Position numbers and translations under genes: made by a program
The notes under the pieces: model-generated
Databases searched by the model: none
Told to the model about the DNA's origin: nothing
What the model saw: the letters and a program-made list of their open reading frames with translations, nothing else
Virus record (IMG/VR): IMGVR_UViG_3300000385_000012
Span: 1-36,814 of that record
Reading direction: 5' to 3' (one strand)
DNA from: a virus
DNA length: 36,814 nucleotides
Shown: positions 25,176-34,403 of the stretch, in pieces
Position numbering within the stretch: the first letter of the stretch is position 1
How the letters are laid out: every line of letters begins with the position of its first letter

Positions 25176-25399
25176 AGCGCTTCCTCCATAGCTGCATCGA
25201 CAGCGGCTTGCCAATTCAGTTTCTCAGGGTATGCCTTGGTGAAGTCAATATCGAACACCCGATACCCCGTCTTAGTCTCGCGGAGAGTAAGGTTATTATC
25301 GGACAGCCACGTAAGACGCGCCCTGTCTGTGTTAATGCCTTGAATCACAGCCCCGCAAACACGGGCCTCACATTGTCCACGGCATGGACATATCTTCAT
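25172..25399 (-). CDS. Small protein with N-terminal Cys motif, unknown
   Basis: This is a 75-residue protein. MKICPCRGQCEARVCG provides four Cys that may bind zinc. The remainder (LTWLSDNNLTLRETKTGYRVFDIDFTKAYPEKLNWQAAVDAA) looks like a compact alpha-beta fold. It begins by overlap with the primase stop and ends in EEAL, whose codons hold the ribosome-binding site of the next gene. No family is recognised. Confidence 0.75.
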   Translation of the reverse strand: MKICPCRGQCEARVCGAVIQGINTDRARLTWLSDNNLTLRETKTGYRVFDIDFTKAYPEKLNWQAAVDAAMEEAL

Positions 25400-27054
25400 A
25401 GCGCTTCCTCCTCTGCTACCACCGGCTCGAACTCGCTGAGCCTGCCGGTGTCGTTGTCGTAAAGTAGATGACCCGCTGGGCCAGTGATACCGCTGAACCT
25501 GTTCTTGAGTACACGCACACTGGTGGTGTTGCGTACAACGGGGTCGTCTGCTTGGCCGTTACGCTCAAGGCCAATCACAAAGTCGGACAGCTGGGCGATG
25601 GCCGCGCTGCCCCGCAGCTGTGACAGGCTAGTGGCTGCGCCCTCTTCGTGGCCCTTACCTTCAGGCCGCTTGAGGTGCGACACGGCGAACAGTACAATCC
25701 CTGTGTCCTGTGTGAGCGTACGTAGCTTGGTCATTATCTCGTCGAGGGCACGGCGCTCATCGCCATGCTGACCAGCCGACACTAGAATACTAATGTGATC
25801 TAAGACAATCACCTTGCAGTCCAGCGCCTTAGCCATGAAGCGGACACGTGCCACCACTTGGTCAACGGTAGCGCCTGTGTCGAATGACGCATCCATAATC
25901 ATCAGCTGACCGTCACCGAAGACACGCTCGAACGACTCCCTGTAAGCGTCGTCACCGCGTTTTATAGCACTGGTAGGTAGATGCACAGGGGTGGACAGAT
26001 CGACGCCCATGAAGCCTTCAGCGGTGCGTTCGACCGACTCCTCCATGAACAGACAGCCTACCTTGTGCGGTGTAGTCTTGCGGATATGCATGACCAGCTC
26101 CCGCAGTATGGAAGACTTCCCTAACCCTGACCCCGCCGTAATGGTTACCAGCTCAGTTGGGCGGAAGCCGAAGGTCAGGTCGTTAAGCTTAGGCCACGGC
26201 CAATCACCGATAGCCGCTGGTTTATCCGCGTTTAGACGCTGCCACAACTCGTCGACAGACAGCACACCCTTGGGGGTATACTGTGAGGCAGACCAGTAGG
26301 CGTCGGTGAATTCCTTGGTCAGGCCAGCCTTCAGGTAGTCGTTAGCATCCTTGCCCTGCTTGGCGTCTAGCTTCATGACCCGAAGCTTACCGGCGAAGAC
26401 GTCAGCAGCCTTCTCGACAGCTGCCTTGCCTGCCTCGTCGGCATCAAAGCACAGGATGATTTCCTCGAAGCCATCAAGGAACTCGTAGCTGGCTTTGAAG
26501 TCACGACCTGCGCCGGCAGCACCGCTACGCAAGGACACAACAGGCACCTTGCCTTGCAGTATCTGCCATGCAGACAGGGCATCCAGCTCACCCTCTGTCA
26601 CGACAATGCGATTACGTTGATGGTTGCCGTACTTGTGTTGGCCGAACAGACCGCCGTCCTTGGTGTCGCCGATAGCGCGGAAGGCCTTGTCCTGACCCCG
26701 CACCTTGAAGCCTACAGGCTCGGAGGAGTCGTCGGTGAAGTAGGGGTATAGGTGCGTGCCGTCTGCCTGCACCACTACGCCGTAGTGCTTGACGGCGGCA
26801 GCACTAATGCAGCGGTCAGGGATGGCGGCAGGGTTTGCCTTGTGCCATTGCTCGACCGCTCGGGTGTGTTGAATTGAAGTGCTAATGGGTTTGTCCTCCA
26901 TGTACTTGGTGTAGAATGGTTCGCTCGAAGCGCTGTCAATTTTCTTGCGGGTGTCACAGCTGAAGCATGTACTCCAGCCGTCGCTATTCTCTGCCCTTGC
27001 GTCGCTGCTTCCGCAGTCATCACAGGGTAGCTTTGTACGTACAAATTGACCCAT
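25396..27054 (-). CDS. Primase-helicase (T7 gp4-like)
   Basis: This is a 552-residue bifunctional replication protein. A zinc-binding domain has Cys11, Cys14, Cys30 and Cys33. The TOPRIM primase core has VVTEGELDALSAWQ (about 151-164) and LCFDADEAGK (about 201-210). The RecA-like helicase has Walker A TAGSGLGKSS (306-315), the E of MEESVE, Walker B VIVLDHISIL, and a final block SHLKRPEGKGHEEGAATSLSQLRGSAAI, as in T7 gp4. The acidic end, EPVVAEEEAL, may contact the polymerase. GGTTCCTCCGC on the plus strand is its GGAGG site; it is driven from 27078. Confidence 0.95.
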   Translation of the reverse strand: MGQFVRTKLPCDDCGSSDARAENSDGWSTCFSCDTRKKIDSASSEPFYTKYMEDKPISTSIQHTRAVEQWHKANPAAIPDRCISAAAVKHYGVVVQADGTHLYPYFTDDSSEPVGFKVRGQDKAFRAIGDTKDGGLFGQHKYGNHQRNRIVVTEGELDALSAWQILQGKVPVVSLRSGAAGAGRDFKASYEFLDGFEEIILCFDADEAGKAAVEKAADVFAGKLRVMKLDAKQGKDANDYLKAGLTKEFTDAYWSASQYTPKGVLSVDELWQRLNADKPAAIGDWPWPKLNDLTFGFRPTELVTITAGSGLGKSSILRELVMHIRKTTPHKVGCLFMEESVERTAEGFMGVDLSTPVHLPTSAIKRGDDAYRESFERVFGDGQLMIMDASFDTGATVDQVVARVRFMAKALDCKVIVLDHISILVSAGQHGDERRALDEIMTKLRTLTQDTGIVLFAVSHLKRPEGKGHEEGAATSLSQLRGSAAIAQLSDFVIGLERNGQADDPVVRNTTSVRVLKNRFSGITGPAGHLLYDNDTGRLSEFEPVVAEEEAL

Positions 27055-27077: not shown

Positions 27078-27106
27078 ATTGTATCAGAAATACTCGTCGC
27101 TGTCTA
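27078..27106 (-). promoter_or_regulatory. Promoter for the primase-helicase
   Basis: On the minus strand TAGACA (27101-27106), 17 bases ending in TGA, and TACAAT (27078-27083). The spacer end TTTCTGA includes the TGA stop of the upstream gene. The sequence TTTCTGATACAATATA is identical at the portal promoter (34381-34409), which also overlaps a TTC-TGA stop. Confidence 0.75.
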
Positions 27107-27455
27107 GGTAGTCGCCCGTGTCTTGGTAGTATTCCCGAAATGCCTCAGCAGCATCCCGCTCCGCTACTGTCAGAGGCACCCCTGCCCCCTCCATGTCACA
27201 CTCTACCCGAACCTCACTGCCCCACTGGTAGCCGTATTCGCGGTACTCGTCGGGCAGTAGGTCCAGCTCCTGATAGTCCTCCTCGATTTCAATGTAGCTA
27301 CCCATCGGCACGCCACGGCCTACACGTGCAGCCTTCTCGGCACGATCGTCATACTCTAGTGTCTCGATCTTGCCGCCATTTGCTAGGAATATGCGGGTAT
27401 CGTCGGCTAACTTAGCCCGAACCTGCTCCTTGGTTAAACCTGATAGTGCGCCCAT
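27084..27455 (-). CDS. Unknown early protein
   Basis: This is a 123-residue acidic protein. The N-terminal part SGLTKEQVRAKLADDTRIFLANGGKIETL resembles short phage proteins that begin with a helix and a G-G-K-I-x-x-L strand; the rest is Asp/Glu/Tyr-rich (YIEIEEDYQELDLLPDEYREYGYQWG). AAAGGAGTGAGCC precedes the ATG. The end, EYF-stop, forms part of the promoter of the next gene. No function is assigned. Confidence 0.75.
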   Translation of the reverse strand: MGALSGLTKEQVRAKLADDTRIFLANGGKIETLEYDDRAEKAARVGRGVPMGSYIEIEEDYQELDLLPDEYREYGYQWGSEVRVECDMEGAGVPLTVAERDAAEAFREYYQDTGDYLDSDEYF

Positions 27456-30554: not shown

Positions 30555-31322
30555 TTACATTTTTGACGCTAGGCGTCGGGCCAGTTTGCTCTGTCGCTTG
30601 GCTGCGCGTTGGGCCTTAGACTGTGCGTCGGCGTATTGCGCCGCACGGCTAACTTTAGCGGCTTGTGTTTTGGTACCCACGATGTCATCAATACCGAAGT
30701 ACCGGCGCGCTTTGGCTGTGGCCGCGTGATGCTTTGCTAGCGCGTTGGTTTGCTTCTCAGTCCAGCGCTTGGGGGCCATGTATGTTTCAGCTGACAGGCC
30801 GGACGGCGCGCCCGCTGGGGTCATGACATCAAACCCCTCGATGGCAATGTGGTCTGTGCGTGGCGTGTAATGCGGGTTTAGGCTGTCTGCTTCTTTGGTG
30901 TCGCAGGCCGTCTCCACTAGCTGCGCGTTGGGCTTGTGGGCTGTCATGTTCTCAACGTTGTAGATACCGTGGTACTCGATAGCACTAACCGAGTCAATGT
31001 CATCGTCGGCCACGTCGAAGTCAATGACGCCATCGTCTGACTGTGCGAAGTATTCCGCTCCGTACACCATGACGCGTTCATCCCTGTCTTGTTTCTCGTA
31101 TAGGTCGGCGGCGTGTTCGGCCATGAAAGCTTCGGCTTCGGCTTGCTGTGCTGCCTTGTGGGCAAGGTAGGCGCGGCGCTTGCGCTCTGCAATCACCTCA
31201 TCGGCCAATGCATCTGATACGTCTGCGCCGTAGGCATTCAATGTCAGACGACCCTGCAATACTTTGAAGTCTGCATCTGAGTAGTCTTTGAGGTTGCTGC
31301 GGATTTCGTTAATGATGTCCAT
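30555..31322 (-). CDS. First leftward early protein, unknown
   Basis: This is a 255-residue protein with a helical N terminus (MDIINEIRSNLKDYSDADFKVLQGRLTLNAYG), a Glu/Ala/His-rich coil at about 60-85, a middle acidic part (DFDVADDDIDSVSAIEYHGIYNVENM), and a Lys/Arg/Ala/Gln-rich basic tail (about 205-255). This could bind nucleic acid. GACTGGAGATACACA precedes the ATG. It is the first gene read from the leftward promoter and has its own terminator, as expected for an immediate-early takeover factor. I do not recognise the family. Confidence 0.8.
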   Translation of the reverse strand: MDIINEIRSNLKDYSDADFKVLQGRLTLNAYGADVSDALADEVIAERKRRAYLAHKAAQQAEAEAFMAEHAADLYEKQDRDERVMVYGAEYFAQSDDGVIDFDVADDDIDSVSAIEYHGIYNVENMTAHKPNAQLVETACDTKEADSLNPHYTPRTDHIAIEGFDVMTPAGAPSGLSAETYMAPKRWTEKQTNALAKHHAATAKARRYFGIDDIVGTKTQAAKVSRAAQYADAQSKAQRAAKRQSKLARRLASKM

Positions 31323-31444: not shown

Positions 31445-31580
31445 ATGGCTGTGCCTATAGGGCGGACTGAATGGCTGTGCCTATAGGCCGGACGGCCGGA
31501 CGGTACCTGTGTGGTGCTGTTGCTGTGTGGTGCTGTGTGGTGCGTGGCGGGTGCTGTGTGGTGGTACCTATAGGCCGGAT
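31445..31580 (+). repeat. Direct repeats and G/T-rich tract
   Basis: ATGGCTGTGCCTATAGG followed by (G/C)CGGAC occurs at 31445 and 31471 (26 bases apart), and ACCTATAGGCCGGA recurs at 31566. Between them GTGTGGTGCTG units repeat about four times, bounded by two GGTACC sites at 31502 and 31563. The strand is strongly biased to G and T. Confidence 0.8.
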
Positions 31581-31637: not shown

Positions 31638-31730
31638 TGTGGATACCTTGTGGGTAGCCTGTGGGTAAGCCTGTGGGTAGCCCTGTGGATAACCTGTGGG
31701 CAACCTGTGGACAACTGAAATGTACCCACA
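31638..31730 (+). repeat. Phased DnaA-box-like iterons, origin candidate
   Basis: Seven copies of TGTGG-R-Y-A-N stand at 31638, 31649, 31660, 31672, 31684, 31695 and 31706, that is every 11-12 bases, on one helical face. The copy at 31684 (TGTGGATAA) is the exact complement of the DnaA box TTATCCACA, and 31706 gives the close variant TTGTCCACA. An eighth copy is inverted at 31723-31730. Confidence 0.82.
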
Positions 31731-31901
31731 GCTTATCCCCCGGGGGGCCTGTGTGGCATGCCCGTGCGCGGTGGGTAGAGCTTCCACTTGCAAAAAGGAC
31801 ATTTCGGTGTCCAATGGGCACTGCATAGTCCATAAACAGGCAAAATGGACACTATATAGACCATTTAGTTATACCCCTAAAGCCCCTAAAGGCCGTATAA
31901 A

Positions 31902-32019: not shown

Positions 32020-32048
32020 TTGACATAGCGCCCTAAACGTGCTACAAT
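32020..32048 (+). promoter_or_regulatory. Rightward promoter for packaging genes
   Basis: TTGACA (32020-32025), 17 bases ending in TGC, and TACAAT (32043-32048) form a near-consensus extended -10 promoter. The start point should be near 32055, at the centre of an 8-bp palindrome. Confidence 0.82.
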
Positions 32049-32216: not shown

Positions 32217-32582
32217 GTGTCTAATAATGTCGTGAAGAGGGGACGACCCTCTAAGAAAGACTTAGCTAGTACAAAAGAGTTGAGTAGACGGGAGCAGTCA
32301 GCAGCTTTAAAGGAGTTTAGGTCACGACTCCTACTTAATCCTAAGTCGCCTAAGCTAATAGAGAAGCTGTTCGAGACGGCTTTTGACGATGAACATAAGA
32401 ATCAGAGTGTCGCGATGAAACTGCTTGCCGACCGTCTCCTACCTGTAGCAGGATTTACGCATGATGGGAAGCAGCAAGCAGCTGTTCAAGTTAATATCAC
32501 GGGTATTGGTGCTGAGTCTTCTGGCGTCACGATCAACGGCAGCACTGGAGACCTTGAAGGGGACGATTACGATGATGAATAA
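32217..32582 (+). CDS. Small terminase subunit candidate
   Basis: This is a 121-residue protein from a GTG start with TTAAGGAGACAGTTC upstream. The N terminus is basic (RGRPSKKDLASTKEL), the middle helical (ALKEFRSRLLLNPKSPKLIEKLFETAFDDEHKNQSVAMKLLADRLLP), and the tail beta-like then very acidic (GDLEGDDYDDE). The size, basic DNA-binding-like start, acidic end and place in the same operon as the large terminase suggest the subunit that recognises phage DNA. Similarity to a named family is not clear, so the call rests mostly on position. Confidence 0.68.
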   Translation: MSNNVVKRGRPSKKDLASTKELSRREQSAALKEFRSRLLLNPKSPKLIEKLFETAFDDEHKNQSVAMKLLADRLLPVAGFTHDGKQQAAVQVNITGIGAESSGVTINGSTGDLEGDDYDDE

Positions 32583-33147
32583 GCCAGAAGCTACAGGAAT
32601 GCTTGCACCTAAAGAACCTGTAAAAGCAAAAGAAGAAGAAAAAGCCGTAAAAGAAGAACCCAAAAGGTATTATGGCGCTGATGCCGTACAACAAGCTACT
32701 AAGTATTATGGCTTCAAAGGCCCAATTTCCGAAACAGCCCGCACAATTATTGAAGAAGAGGGGTTTGTTCCCGGCGTATACGCTGACTCTAAGGGCATTG
32801 AGACAGAAGGTGTAGGCCAAACTAAGGATATGATAGGTAAGAACTTCTTTACGGAAGTGCTTCCTGAGTATGAGAGGACAGCGTCCCGCAACACCAAAAA
32901 CTTTTCCAGCCTTCCTGAGAAAGTGCAAGCTGCTATTGTCTCTATGGCCTACAGAGGAGACTGGGGGCCTAACACAAAAGCAAACCTTAAGGCTGGTAAG
33001 TGGCGAGAAGCAGCTGCTCAATACTTAGATCATGATGAATTCCGCAAAGGCAGACGTAAGGGCGCTACAGACGCACAGGTTGCCATTGCGGACCGTATGG
33101 AACGTAACGCCCGTACGCTGTTTGAACACGCGGATAGTACAGACTAA
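32572..33147 (+). CDS. Lysozyme (T4-type muramidase, endolysin)
   Basis: This is 191 residues from ATG 32572. After a charged Lys/Glu-rich linker, the catalytic core has EEEGFVPGVYADSKGIETEGVGQT. Glu63, Asp72 and Thr78 fit the E-D-T triad of phage lysozymes (E-G-x5-Y-x-D-x2-G-x2-T-x-G). AIVSMAYRGDWGPNT and GRRKGATDAQVAIADRMERNARTL resemble the later helices. It cuts the peptidoglycan glycan chain. From the short start there is no export signal, so a holin is needed. An in-frame ATG at 32461 with AGGA upstream would add a signal-peptide-like leader. It overlaps the large terminase (TAATGG). Confidence 0.86.
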   Translation: MMNKPEATGMLAPKEPVKAKEEEKAVKEEPKRYYGADAVQQATKYYGFKGPISETARTIIEEEGFVPGVYADSKGIETEGVGQTKDMIGKNFFTEVLPEYERTASRNTKNFSSLPEKVQAAIVSMAYRGDWGPNTKANLKAGKWREAAAQYLDHDEFRKGRRKGATDAQVAIADRMERNARTLFEHADSTD

Positions 33148-34403
33148 TGGCTAACGTCAACCTCTCTCTAACACCGTGGCAGCAGAAGGTCTTTGAAGAC
33201 CCGTCACGCTTTAAGGTGGTAGCTGCTGGCCGTCGTACGGGTAAGTCCCACCTAGCTGCCGTAGCGTTGATTGTGAACGCCCTGAACGGCAAGGACGGAA
33301 AGGTTTTCTACGTAGCGCCTACGCAAGGCATGGCCCGTGACATCTTGTGGGAAAAGCTGTTTGAGTTAGCTGGGGACATTGTAGTTAACAGCAACGTCAA
33401 CAATCTAACGATTGAGCTGGCTGGCGGCAACACCATTTACCTCAAGGGAGCGGATAGGCCGGACACCTTGCGAGGGGTTAGTCTAAAGTACCTTGTCTTG
33501 GACGAATACGCGTTTATGAAGAAGGACGTATGGGAAGCCATCCTGCGTCCTGCTTTGTCGGACAAGAAAGGGCATGCGCTGTTCATTGGAACGCCCGAAG
33601 GCCGCAACCACTTCTACGATATGTACGTTGGCTGTATGGGGTGGAAGGACTGGGCCTCTTGGACCTTTTCTTCCTACGACAACCCGTTCGTAGACAAAGA
33701 AGAGATTGAGCACGCCAAGGCCACTCTCCCACGCTGGGCCTTCCAGCAGGAGTACATGGCCTCGTTCGATGCGCAAGGTAGCGAATACTTTGACGTAGAG
33801 GAGTTTGACTACTATGAAGAACGTCCTCATACGGAGCTTGGTGATTATTACATTGCTTGTGATCTTGCTGGCTTTGAGTCAGACAGAGGTAATAAGACAA
33901 AGCGTAGAGACAATTCGGCAATGGCCGTGGTTTTCGTTAGCCACTCAGGCACTTGGTACGTTGAAGACATTAAGTATGGGCGGTGGACACTAGACGAAAC
34001 GGCTCAAGTCATCTTCGACGCTGTGCGGGACTACAAGCCAATAAGCGTAGGGATAGAAAAAGGTATTGCTCAGCAGGCAGTCATGGGACCGTTGAGTGAT
34101 ATTATGCGCCGCACGCATCGTGTTTTCCGTATTGAGCAGCTGTCTCACGGTAACCAGAAGAAACAAGACCGCATCCTCTGGGCCTTGCAGGGGCGCTTTG
34201 AGCACGGTAAGATTAAGCTGAAGCGTAACTCCAACTGGAACGCTACGTTTGCTGACGAAGCCGCTGCGTTTCCCTCACAGCTTGTGCATGACGATTTACT
34301 AGATGCTTTGTCTTACATCGATCAGCTAGCCGTCGTGCCTTACGATAGCGGCATGGACTTAGAAGATGAGTGGGAGCCTCTTGACAAAATAGCTGGTTTC
34401 TGA
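33147..34403 (+). CDS. terL: Terminase large subunit
   Basis: This is a 418-residue packaging motor. The ATPase has an adenine-binding Q (TPWQQKVF), Walker A AAGRRTGKSH (27-36), Walker B YLVLDEYAF with Asp119 and Glu120, and coupling motif IGTPEGRNHFYDMY. The RNase H-like nuclease has ACDLAGFESDR (first Asp), VGIEKG and the final DDLLDALSY. It lies between lysozyme and portal. Its last bases hold the portal promoter and its TGA stop is in the extended -10. At 418 residues it is shorter than the T7 terminase (586). Confidence 0.94.
   Translation: MANVNLSLTPWQQKVFEDPSRFKVVAAGRRTGKSHLAAVALIVNALNGKDGKVFYVAPTQGMARDILWEKLFELAGDIVVNSNVNNLTIELAGGNTIYLKGADRPDTLRGVSLKYLVLDEYAFMKKDVWEAILRPALSDKKGHALFIGTPEGRNHFYDMYVGCMGWKDWASWTFSSYDNPFVDKEEIEHAKATLPRWAFQQEYMASFDAQGSEYFDVEEFDYYEERPHTELGDYYIACDLAGFESDRGNKTKRRDNSAMAVVFVSHSGTWYVEDIKYGRWTLDETAQVIFDAVRDYKPISVGIEKGIAQQAVMGPLSDIMRRTHRVFRIEQLSHGNQKKQDRILWALQGRFEHGKIKLKRNSNWNATFADEAAAFPSQLVHDDLLDALSYIDQLAVVPYDSGMDLEDEWEPLDKIAGF

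Follow-up and report, generated by a model that had tools for sequence, protein, structure and literature searches.

The array of DnaA-box-like sequences described here lies in the window, the whole 36,814-nucleotide stretch of viral DNA that was analysed, and occupies a 0.9 kb gap with leftward early genes on one side and a rightward TerS/TerL operon on the other. The genes and the promoter that set this context are:

25396 to 27054, minus strand: T7-type primase-helicase, with Toprim and DnaB_C domains
30555 to 31322, minus strand: first leftward early gene, without a family match
32020 to 32048, plus strand: sigma-70-type promoter TTGACA-17-TACAAT, ahead of the late operon
32217 to 32582, plus strand: small gene before TerL, a putative TerS by position alone, without a family match and conserved in the group
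33147 to 34403, plus strand: terminase large subunit (TerL), the anchor for finding relatives

The leftward genes include the primase-helicase, a family A polymerase, a Gp2.5-like single-strand-binding protein (SSB), an exonuclease and ribonucleotide reductase, and the rightward operon contains the putative TerS, a lysozyme-like gene, TerL and the portal. This portal is SU10/P22-like, and only the replication module of the phage is therefore T7-like. The earlier note had remarked that a phage RNA polymerase was missing, and indeed a search for the single-subunit enzyme (PF00940) that was positive in phages P483 and phiEap-1 gave nothing in the window and nothing in five near-complete relatives. 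In this the window differs from T7-like phages (Autographiviridae), which have the enzyme. An early gene (27084-27455, minus strand) carries a SutA RNA-polymerase-binding domain scoring above Pfam's cut-off and probably encodes a modulator of host RNA polymerase; together with the sigma-70 promoter, it fits the use of the host enzyme. The promoter pattern was matched once, against 0.9 matches expected in shuffles, and relatives show similar TTGACW/TATAAT pairs at the corresponding place. No replication-initiator family was matched among the scanned proteins of the window and its group, which include small early genes without a family.

The array and its neighboring non-coding elements are:

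31509 to 31563, plus strand: second, different short repeat block of GTGTGGTGCT units; similar variable tandem blocks are common in relatives
31638 to 31716, plus strand: seven direct copies of TGTGGRYAN (reverse complement of NTRYCCACA), established from the letters, shuffles and the same place in relatives
31722 to 31730, minus strand: inverted box, GTACCCACA, read from the window letters; its counterpart in the close relative L005 is a perfect TTATCCACA
31737 to 31751, plus strand: G-run element CCCCCGGGGGGCCTG, which follows the array region in unchanged polarity in most of the phage group
31780 to 31806, plus strand: another conserved block, GCTTCCACTTGCAAAAAGGACATTT, at a distance of 43-46 bp from the G-run and followed by AT-rich DNA in the group

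The TGTGG-R-Y-A copies start at plus-strand positions 31638, 31649, 31660, 31672, 31684, 31695 and 31706, with start-to-start steps of 11, 11, 12, 12, 11 and 11 bp, and as 8-mers they span 76 bases (31638-31713). One of them (31684-31692, TGTGGATAA) matches the complement of the DnaA box TTATCCACA exactly and is the only perfect box of the array; the inverted copy, which ends at 31730, reads TACCCACA. The window letters thus bear out the earlier description of seven direct copies at steps of 11-12 bases followed by one inverted copy, as well as that of a single perfect DnaA-box complement, at 31684. There are nine plus-strand matches to TGTGGRYA in the 36.8 kb window, seven of them within these 76 bases. 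The densest cluster held seven copies within 70 bp. When the intergenic region was shuffled 1000 times with dinucleotides preserved, no cluster exceeded two copies, and 200 shuffles of the full window gave a maximum of one. These comparisons confirm that the array is real and beyond chance. The TGTGG..A bases are invariant in all 13 copies of the window and L005, whereas variation is seen at R, Y and N and in the linkers, which is the pattern expected under selection on the box core. Only four boxes of the cluster are within one mismatch of the Escherichia coli consensus TTWTNCACA, and since the commonest variant, YTACCCACA, departs from it at the fourth base, the array must be described as DnaA-box-like and not as a set of perfect boxes. 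Two features of oriC-type origins, clustering of boxes beyond chance and helical phasing (here at 11-12 bp), are thus present in the window.

Arrays of this kind are not confined to phages. The triple TGTGGRTAACN pattern was found in 44 stretches of a species-level set of bacterial and archaeal genomes, and because dnaA lies 12-654 bp away in 23 of these, this is the array type found at cellular origins. Two small plasmids carry the array at distances of ~120 and ~370 bp from their replication initiator genes, and in a microvirus (bajarodmic virus 162, L180) five DnaA boxes (1480-1535) follow the replication initiator gene by 25 bp. Given the match to cellular origins, host DnaA is the likely binder of the window array. 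The earlier assignment of the boxes to the DnaA type is supported by the occurrence of the same tandem array at dnaA/oriC loci and near plasmid initiators; the window boxes themselves are degenerate. Triple-box arrays at genomic loci (L188-L231) also occur in other settings; about half are not beside dnaA, and some are flanked by nusA/infB.

Relatives were gathered in two ways, by a TerL scan that yielded 68 loci chosen without regard to the array and by a gene-blind scan with three tandem TGTGGRTAACN boxes that yielded 96 viral stretches. Window-type TerS/TerL genes are present in 18 of the 96, and a window-type primase in some others. A DnaA-like array is found at the same place in L005 (87% TerL identity), L007 (82%) and L056 (56%), and weakly in L058, and perfect TTATCCACA arrays occur 250-660 bp (in one case 1.1 kb) upstream of TerS in relatives at 45-58% TerL identity, these last having been found from the array alone. 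Among TerL-scan relatives with the region covered, only ~4 of 30 carry DnaA boxes; most lack them and often have other tandem repeats there, with frequent lags of 11, 12 or 22-24 bp. The search of the same divergent locus in relatives that the earlier note had proposed was thus successful for L005, L007, L056 and others down to ~45% TerL identity, but not for most TerL-scan relatives. In L006 (390-545), L026, L018, L037 and L034, tandem repeats of 11 or 22 bp (e.g., GGGAGCATAGC) stand where relatives have DnaA boxes. The repeat unit of the region appears to be exchanged rapidly between lineages. On the TerL tree the array requires five gains or losses, and the window clusters with L005, L006 and L007, of which L006 is without DnaA boxes; the share of array-bearing rows on this tree is biased, since it holds rows picked up through the array itself. 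L052 lacks the array, though it and array-bearing L056 have very similar TerL proteins; the group as a whole therefore cannot depend on the array as its sole origin. Three lineages (L117/L127/L134, L111 and L092/L168) carry the box array in inverted orientation. A separate case is L082, a high-GC virus that recurs with 32 near-identical contigs in many metagenomes and has a conserved four-box DnaA array.

The presence of other repeats of 11-12 or 22-24 bp in lineages without DnaA boxes, and of early genes without an assigned family adjoining the array, would fit sites with no more than a resemblance to DnaA boxes, either iterons of a phage-encoded initiator or the operators of a phage repressor. 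We consider this very unlikely. The exact TTATCCACA sequence recurs in chromosomes and in phages whose genes are unrelated, the scanned proteins gave no match to an initiator family, and the phrog_2554 early gene family, which was considered and set aside as a source of an array-binding protein, does not track the array strictly. The suggestion of an iteron protein made in the earlier note likewise found no positive support, with no initiator gene recognised and near-perfect TTATCCACA boxes in phages with unrelated genes.

A second element adjoins the array region. In nearly all members it begins directly there with a G-run (GGGGGCGGGGG or CCCCCGGGGGGCC), continues with ~40 variable bases and a block ending in CAAAA, and is followed by AT-rich DNA. 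This G-run-to-CAAAA element is deeply conserved upstream of TerS, with equivalents from L005 to L169, and its polarity is constant across the group even where the box array is inverted. In the window (31738-31806) it is a candidate for a terminase site. This brings in the main rival explanation, a possible but rather unlikely one, in which the array belongs to a genome-end or packaging region and terminase cuts at the G-run or close to it; the phased repeats would be bound during concatemer cutting by the small terminase, or by host DnaA acting as an architectural protein, these variants sharing the same limited probability. IHF serves as such a protein at lambda cos, and short repeats flank the T7 terminal repeat. 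The explanation owes its rank to the T7-like arrays that lie inside terminal repeats and to the array and G-run by the genome end of Arthrobacter phage Seahorse. In tailed phages the triple-box array is often at genome ends. In phiEap-1 (5 boxes) and Klebsiella phage Kp7 (7 boxes) the whole array is inside the direct terminal repeat, at both record ends, and PhageTerm-predicted terminal repeats contain the boxes of Stenotrophomonas phage Siara and Serratia phage Slocum. When the ends of Seahorse are joined, the order is array, G-run GGGTGGGGGGAGG, genome end, TerS and TerL, as in the window. Packaging is also favored by the location of the array directly upstream of the terminase genes, by the polar and conserved G-run element, and by the replacement of repeat units between lineages, which fits a site co-evolving with a phage protein. 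Terminase genes were also seen near arrays in unrelated contigs, an observation that was set aside as evidence. The terminal repeats of Kp7 (L184, 1-238) and phiEap-1 (L185, 1-195) consist for the most part of perfect DnaA boxes, mostly about two helical turns apart.

Several observations count against packaging. Contig ends in the group fix no terminus at the array, and the genomes G003 and G005 close into circles cut away from it. Array orientation is inverted in the three lineages named above, perfect DnaA boxes would be unexpected for a phage-encoded small terminase, and chromosomes, plasmids and microviruses with such arrays have no terminase, bajarodmic virus 162 being a case in point. 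Contigs found by the array pattern end near the array above chance (56 whole contigs, KS p ~6e-5), and near-complete relatives are cut 1.0, 1.5 and 2.4 kb from the array or elsewhere. Contig ends were dropped as proof of a terminus because the contigs are not independent, G-runs and repeats can break assemblies, and the cuts of near-complete genomes are scattered. L112, which had seemed a full-length contig ending at the array, was ruled out; the locus ended there and not the contig.

We tentatively regard a DnaA-assisted replication origin as the single most likely function of the array, with a confidence that falls a little short of even. Its support lies in the array itself and its phasing, in the finding that diverged relatives have it at the same place, and in its match to the array type of cellular origins. 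An array that flips while G-run polarity stays fixed is more in keeping with a site for loading DnaA than with a polar site for terminase. Lack of both a phage RNA polymerase and a recognised initiator in the group also appears to count for a DnaA origin. The further step taken in the earlier note, from the missing polymerase to a DnaA-dependent start, is not supported, because arrays and the polymerase coexist in T7-like phages and both are absent in G004 and G005. In six near-complete genomes the cumulative GC skew reaches its minimum no more than ~2 kb from the array region, and in G001 inside the array; this seems compatible with an origin in all six, with the support confounded because gene strand switches at the same place. 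Against a DnaA origin stand the presence of boxes in only ~4 of 30 relatives chosen independently of the array, the degeneracy of the window boxes, and the location of several tailed-phage arrays at genome ends, which would fit another role. No typical unwinding element or DnaA-trio was identified near the array, trios having been sought by eye, which may likewise tell against an origin. GC content in the group drops from 0.76/0.60 to ~0.35-0.40 beginning 50 bp past the G-run. T7-type primase sites (GGGTC, TGGTC, GTGTC) 3' of the array were considered and rejected, with 3 found against ~1.1 expected and as many present in 10% of windows.

Under a DnaA origin, several host DnaA molecules would form a head-to-tail row on boxes spaced by one helical turn, as at oriC, and would help open the intergenic DNA, probably in the AT-rich stretch past the G-run. 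The T7-type primase-helicase, the polymerase and the single-strand-binding protein of the phage would then load at the opened DNA, and copying would proceed outward, to the left into the early genes and to the right into the late genes. Each of these steps (DnaA binding, DNA opening, helicase loading and replication start at the array) is inferred.

Yet another role, which we judge decidedly improbable, is that the array titrates host DnaA and so stops initiation on the chromosome, or acts as a roadblock that holds the DNA while it enters. The injection stop signal of phage T5, proposed to hold the DNA at entry, contains repeats, palindromes and DnaA boxes (2026 paper, PMC13250531). T5-like phages have runs of DnaA boxes in the left terminal repeat, and an array that is dispensable (L052 versus L056) fits an accessory role. 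However, seven to eight weak sites are a small number for titration at an early stage of infection, and the proteins scanned showed no two-step entry genes (A1/A2).

DnaA boxes and phased arrays are already known. The place of the array before the terminase operon with its G-run, and within T7-like terminal repeats, appears not to be described in searchable papers; nor did the searchable literature yield a direct description of DnaA boxes in phage terminal repeats or of DnaA-dependent lytic phages. For phages that have T7-type replication genes and lack an RNA polymerase, the array offers a concrete candidate site and a candidate host factor for how copying starts. The general pattern of DnaA arrays in terminal repeats, or next to the ends, of unrelated phages was not found described in the papers searched, and its recurrence would point to shared use of the host initiator. 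The recurrence suggests that viruses borrow host DnaA, for replication or another purpose. It is conceivable, though we hold it to be unlikely, that DnaA arrays at the genome ends or terminase sites of diverse tailed phages join replication start and genome maturation in one hub, which in this phage group would consist of the array, the G-run and the terminase operon.

Among known systems, the right end of Seahorse shares with the window the order of array, G-run and TerS/TerL, but the Seahorse end is ~35-40 bp past the G-run whereas TerS of the window starts ~465 bp past it. Berlinvirus P483 and A7, Eapunavirus phiEap-1 and Klebsiella phage Kp7 resemble the window in having repeated TGTGGATAAC at helical spacings of ~11 or 21-22 bp, located close to terminase genes or to genome ends; they differ in encoding their own RNA polymerase, and the window carries an SU10/P22-like portal. 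The T5 injection stop signal is similar in that it has non-coding repeats that include DnaA boxes close to a genome end (PMC13250531), but T5-like phages enter in two steps, a feature not seen among the scanned proteins of the window. Finally, unlike bacterial oriC, the window array resides in a phage, without a dnaA gene, with degenerate boxes, an adjoining G-run and no identified unwinding element; like the oriC arrays beside dnaA, it is intergenic and its boxes run head to tail, one helical turn apart.
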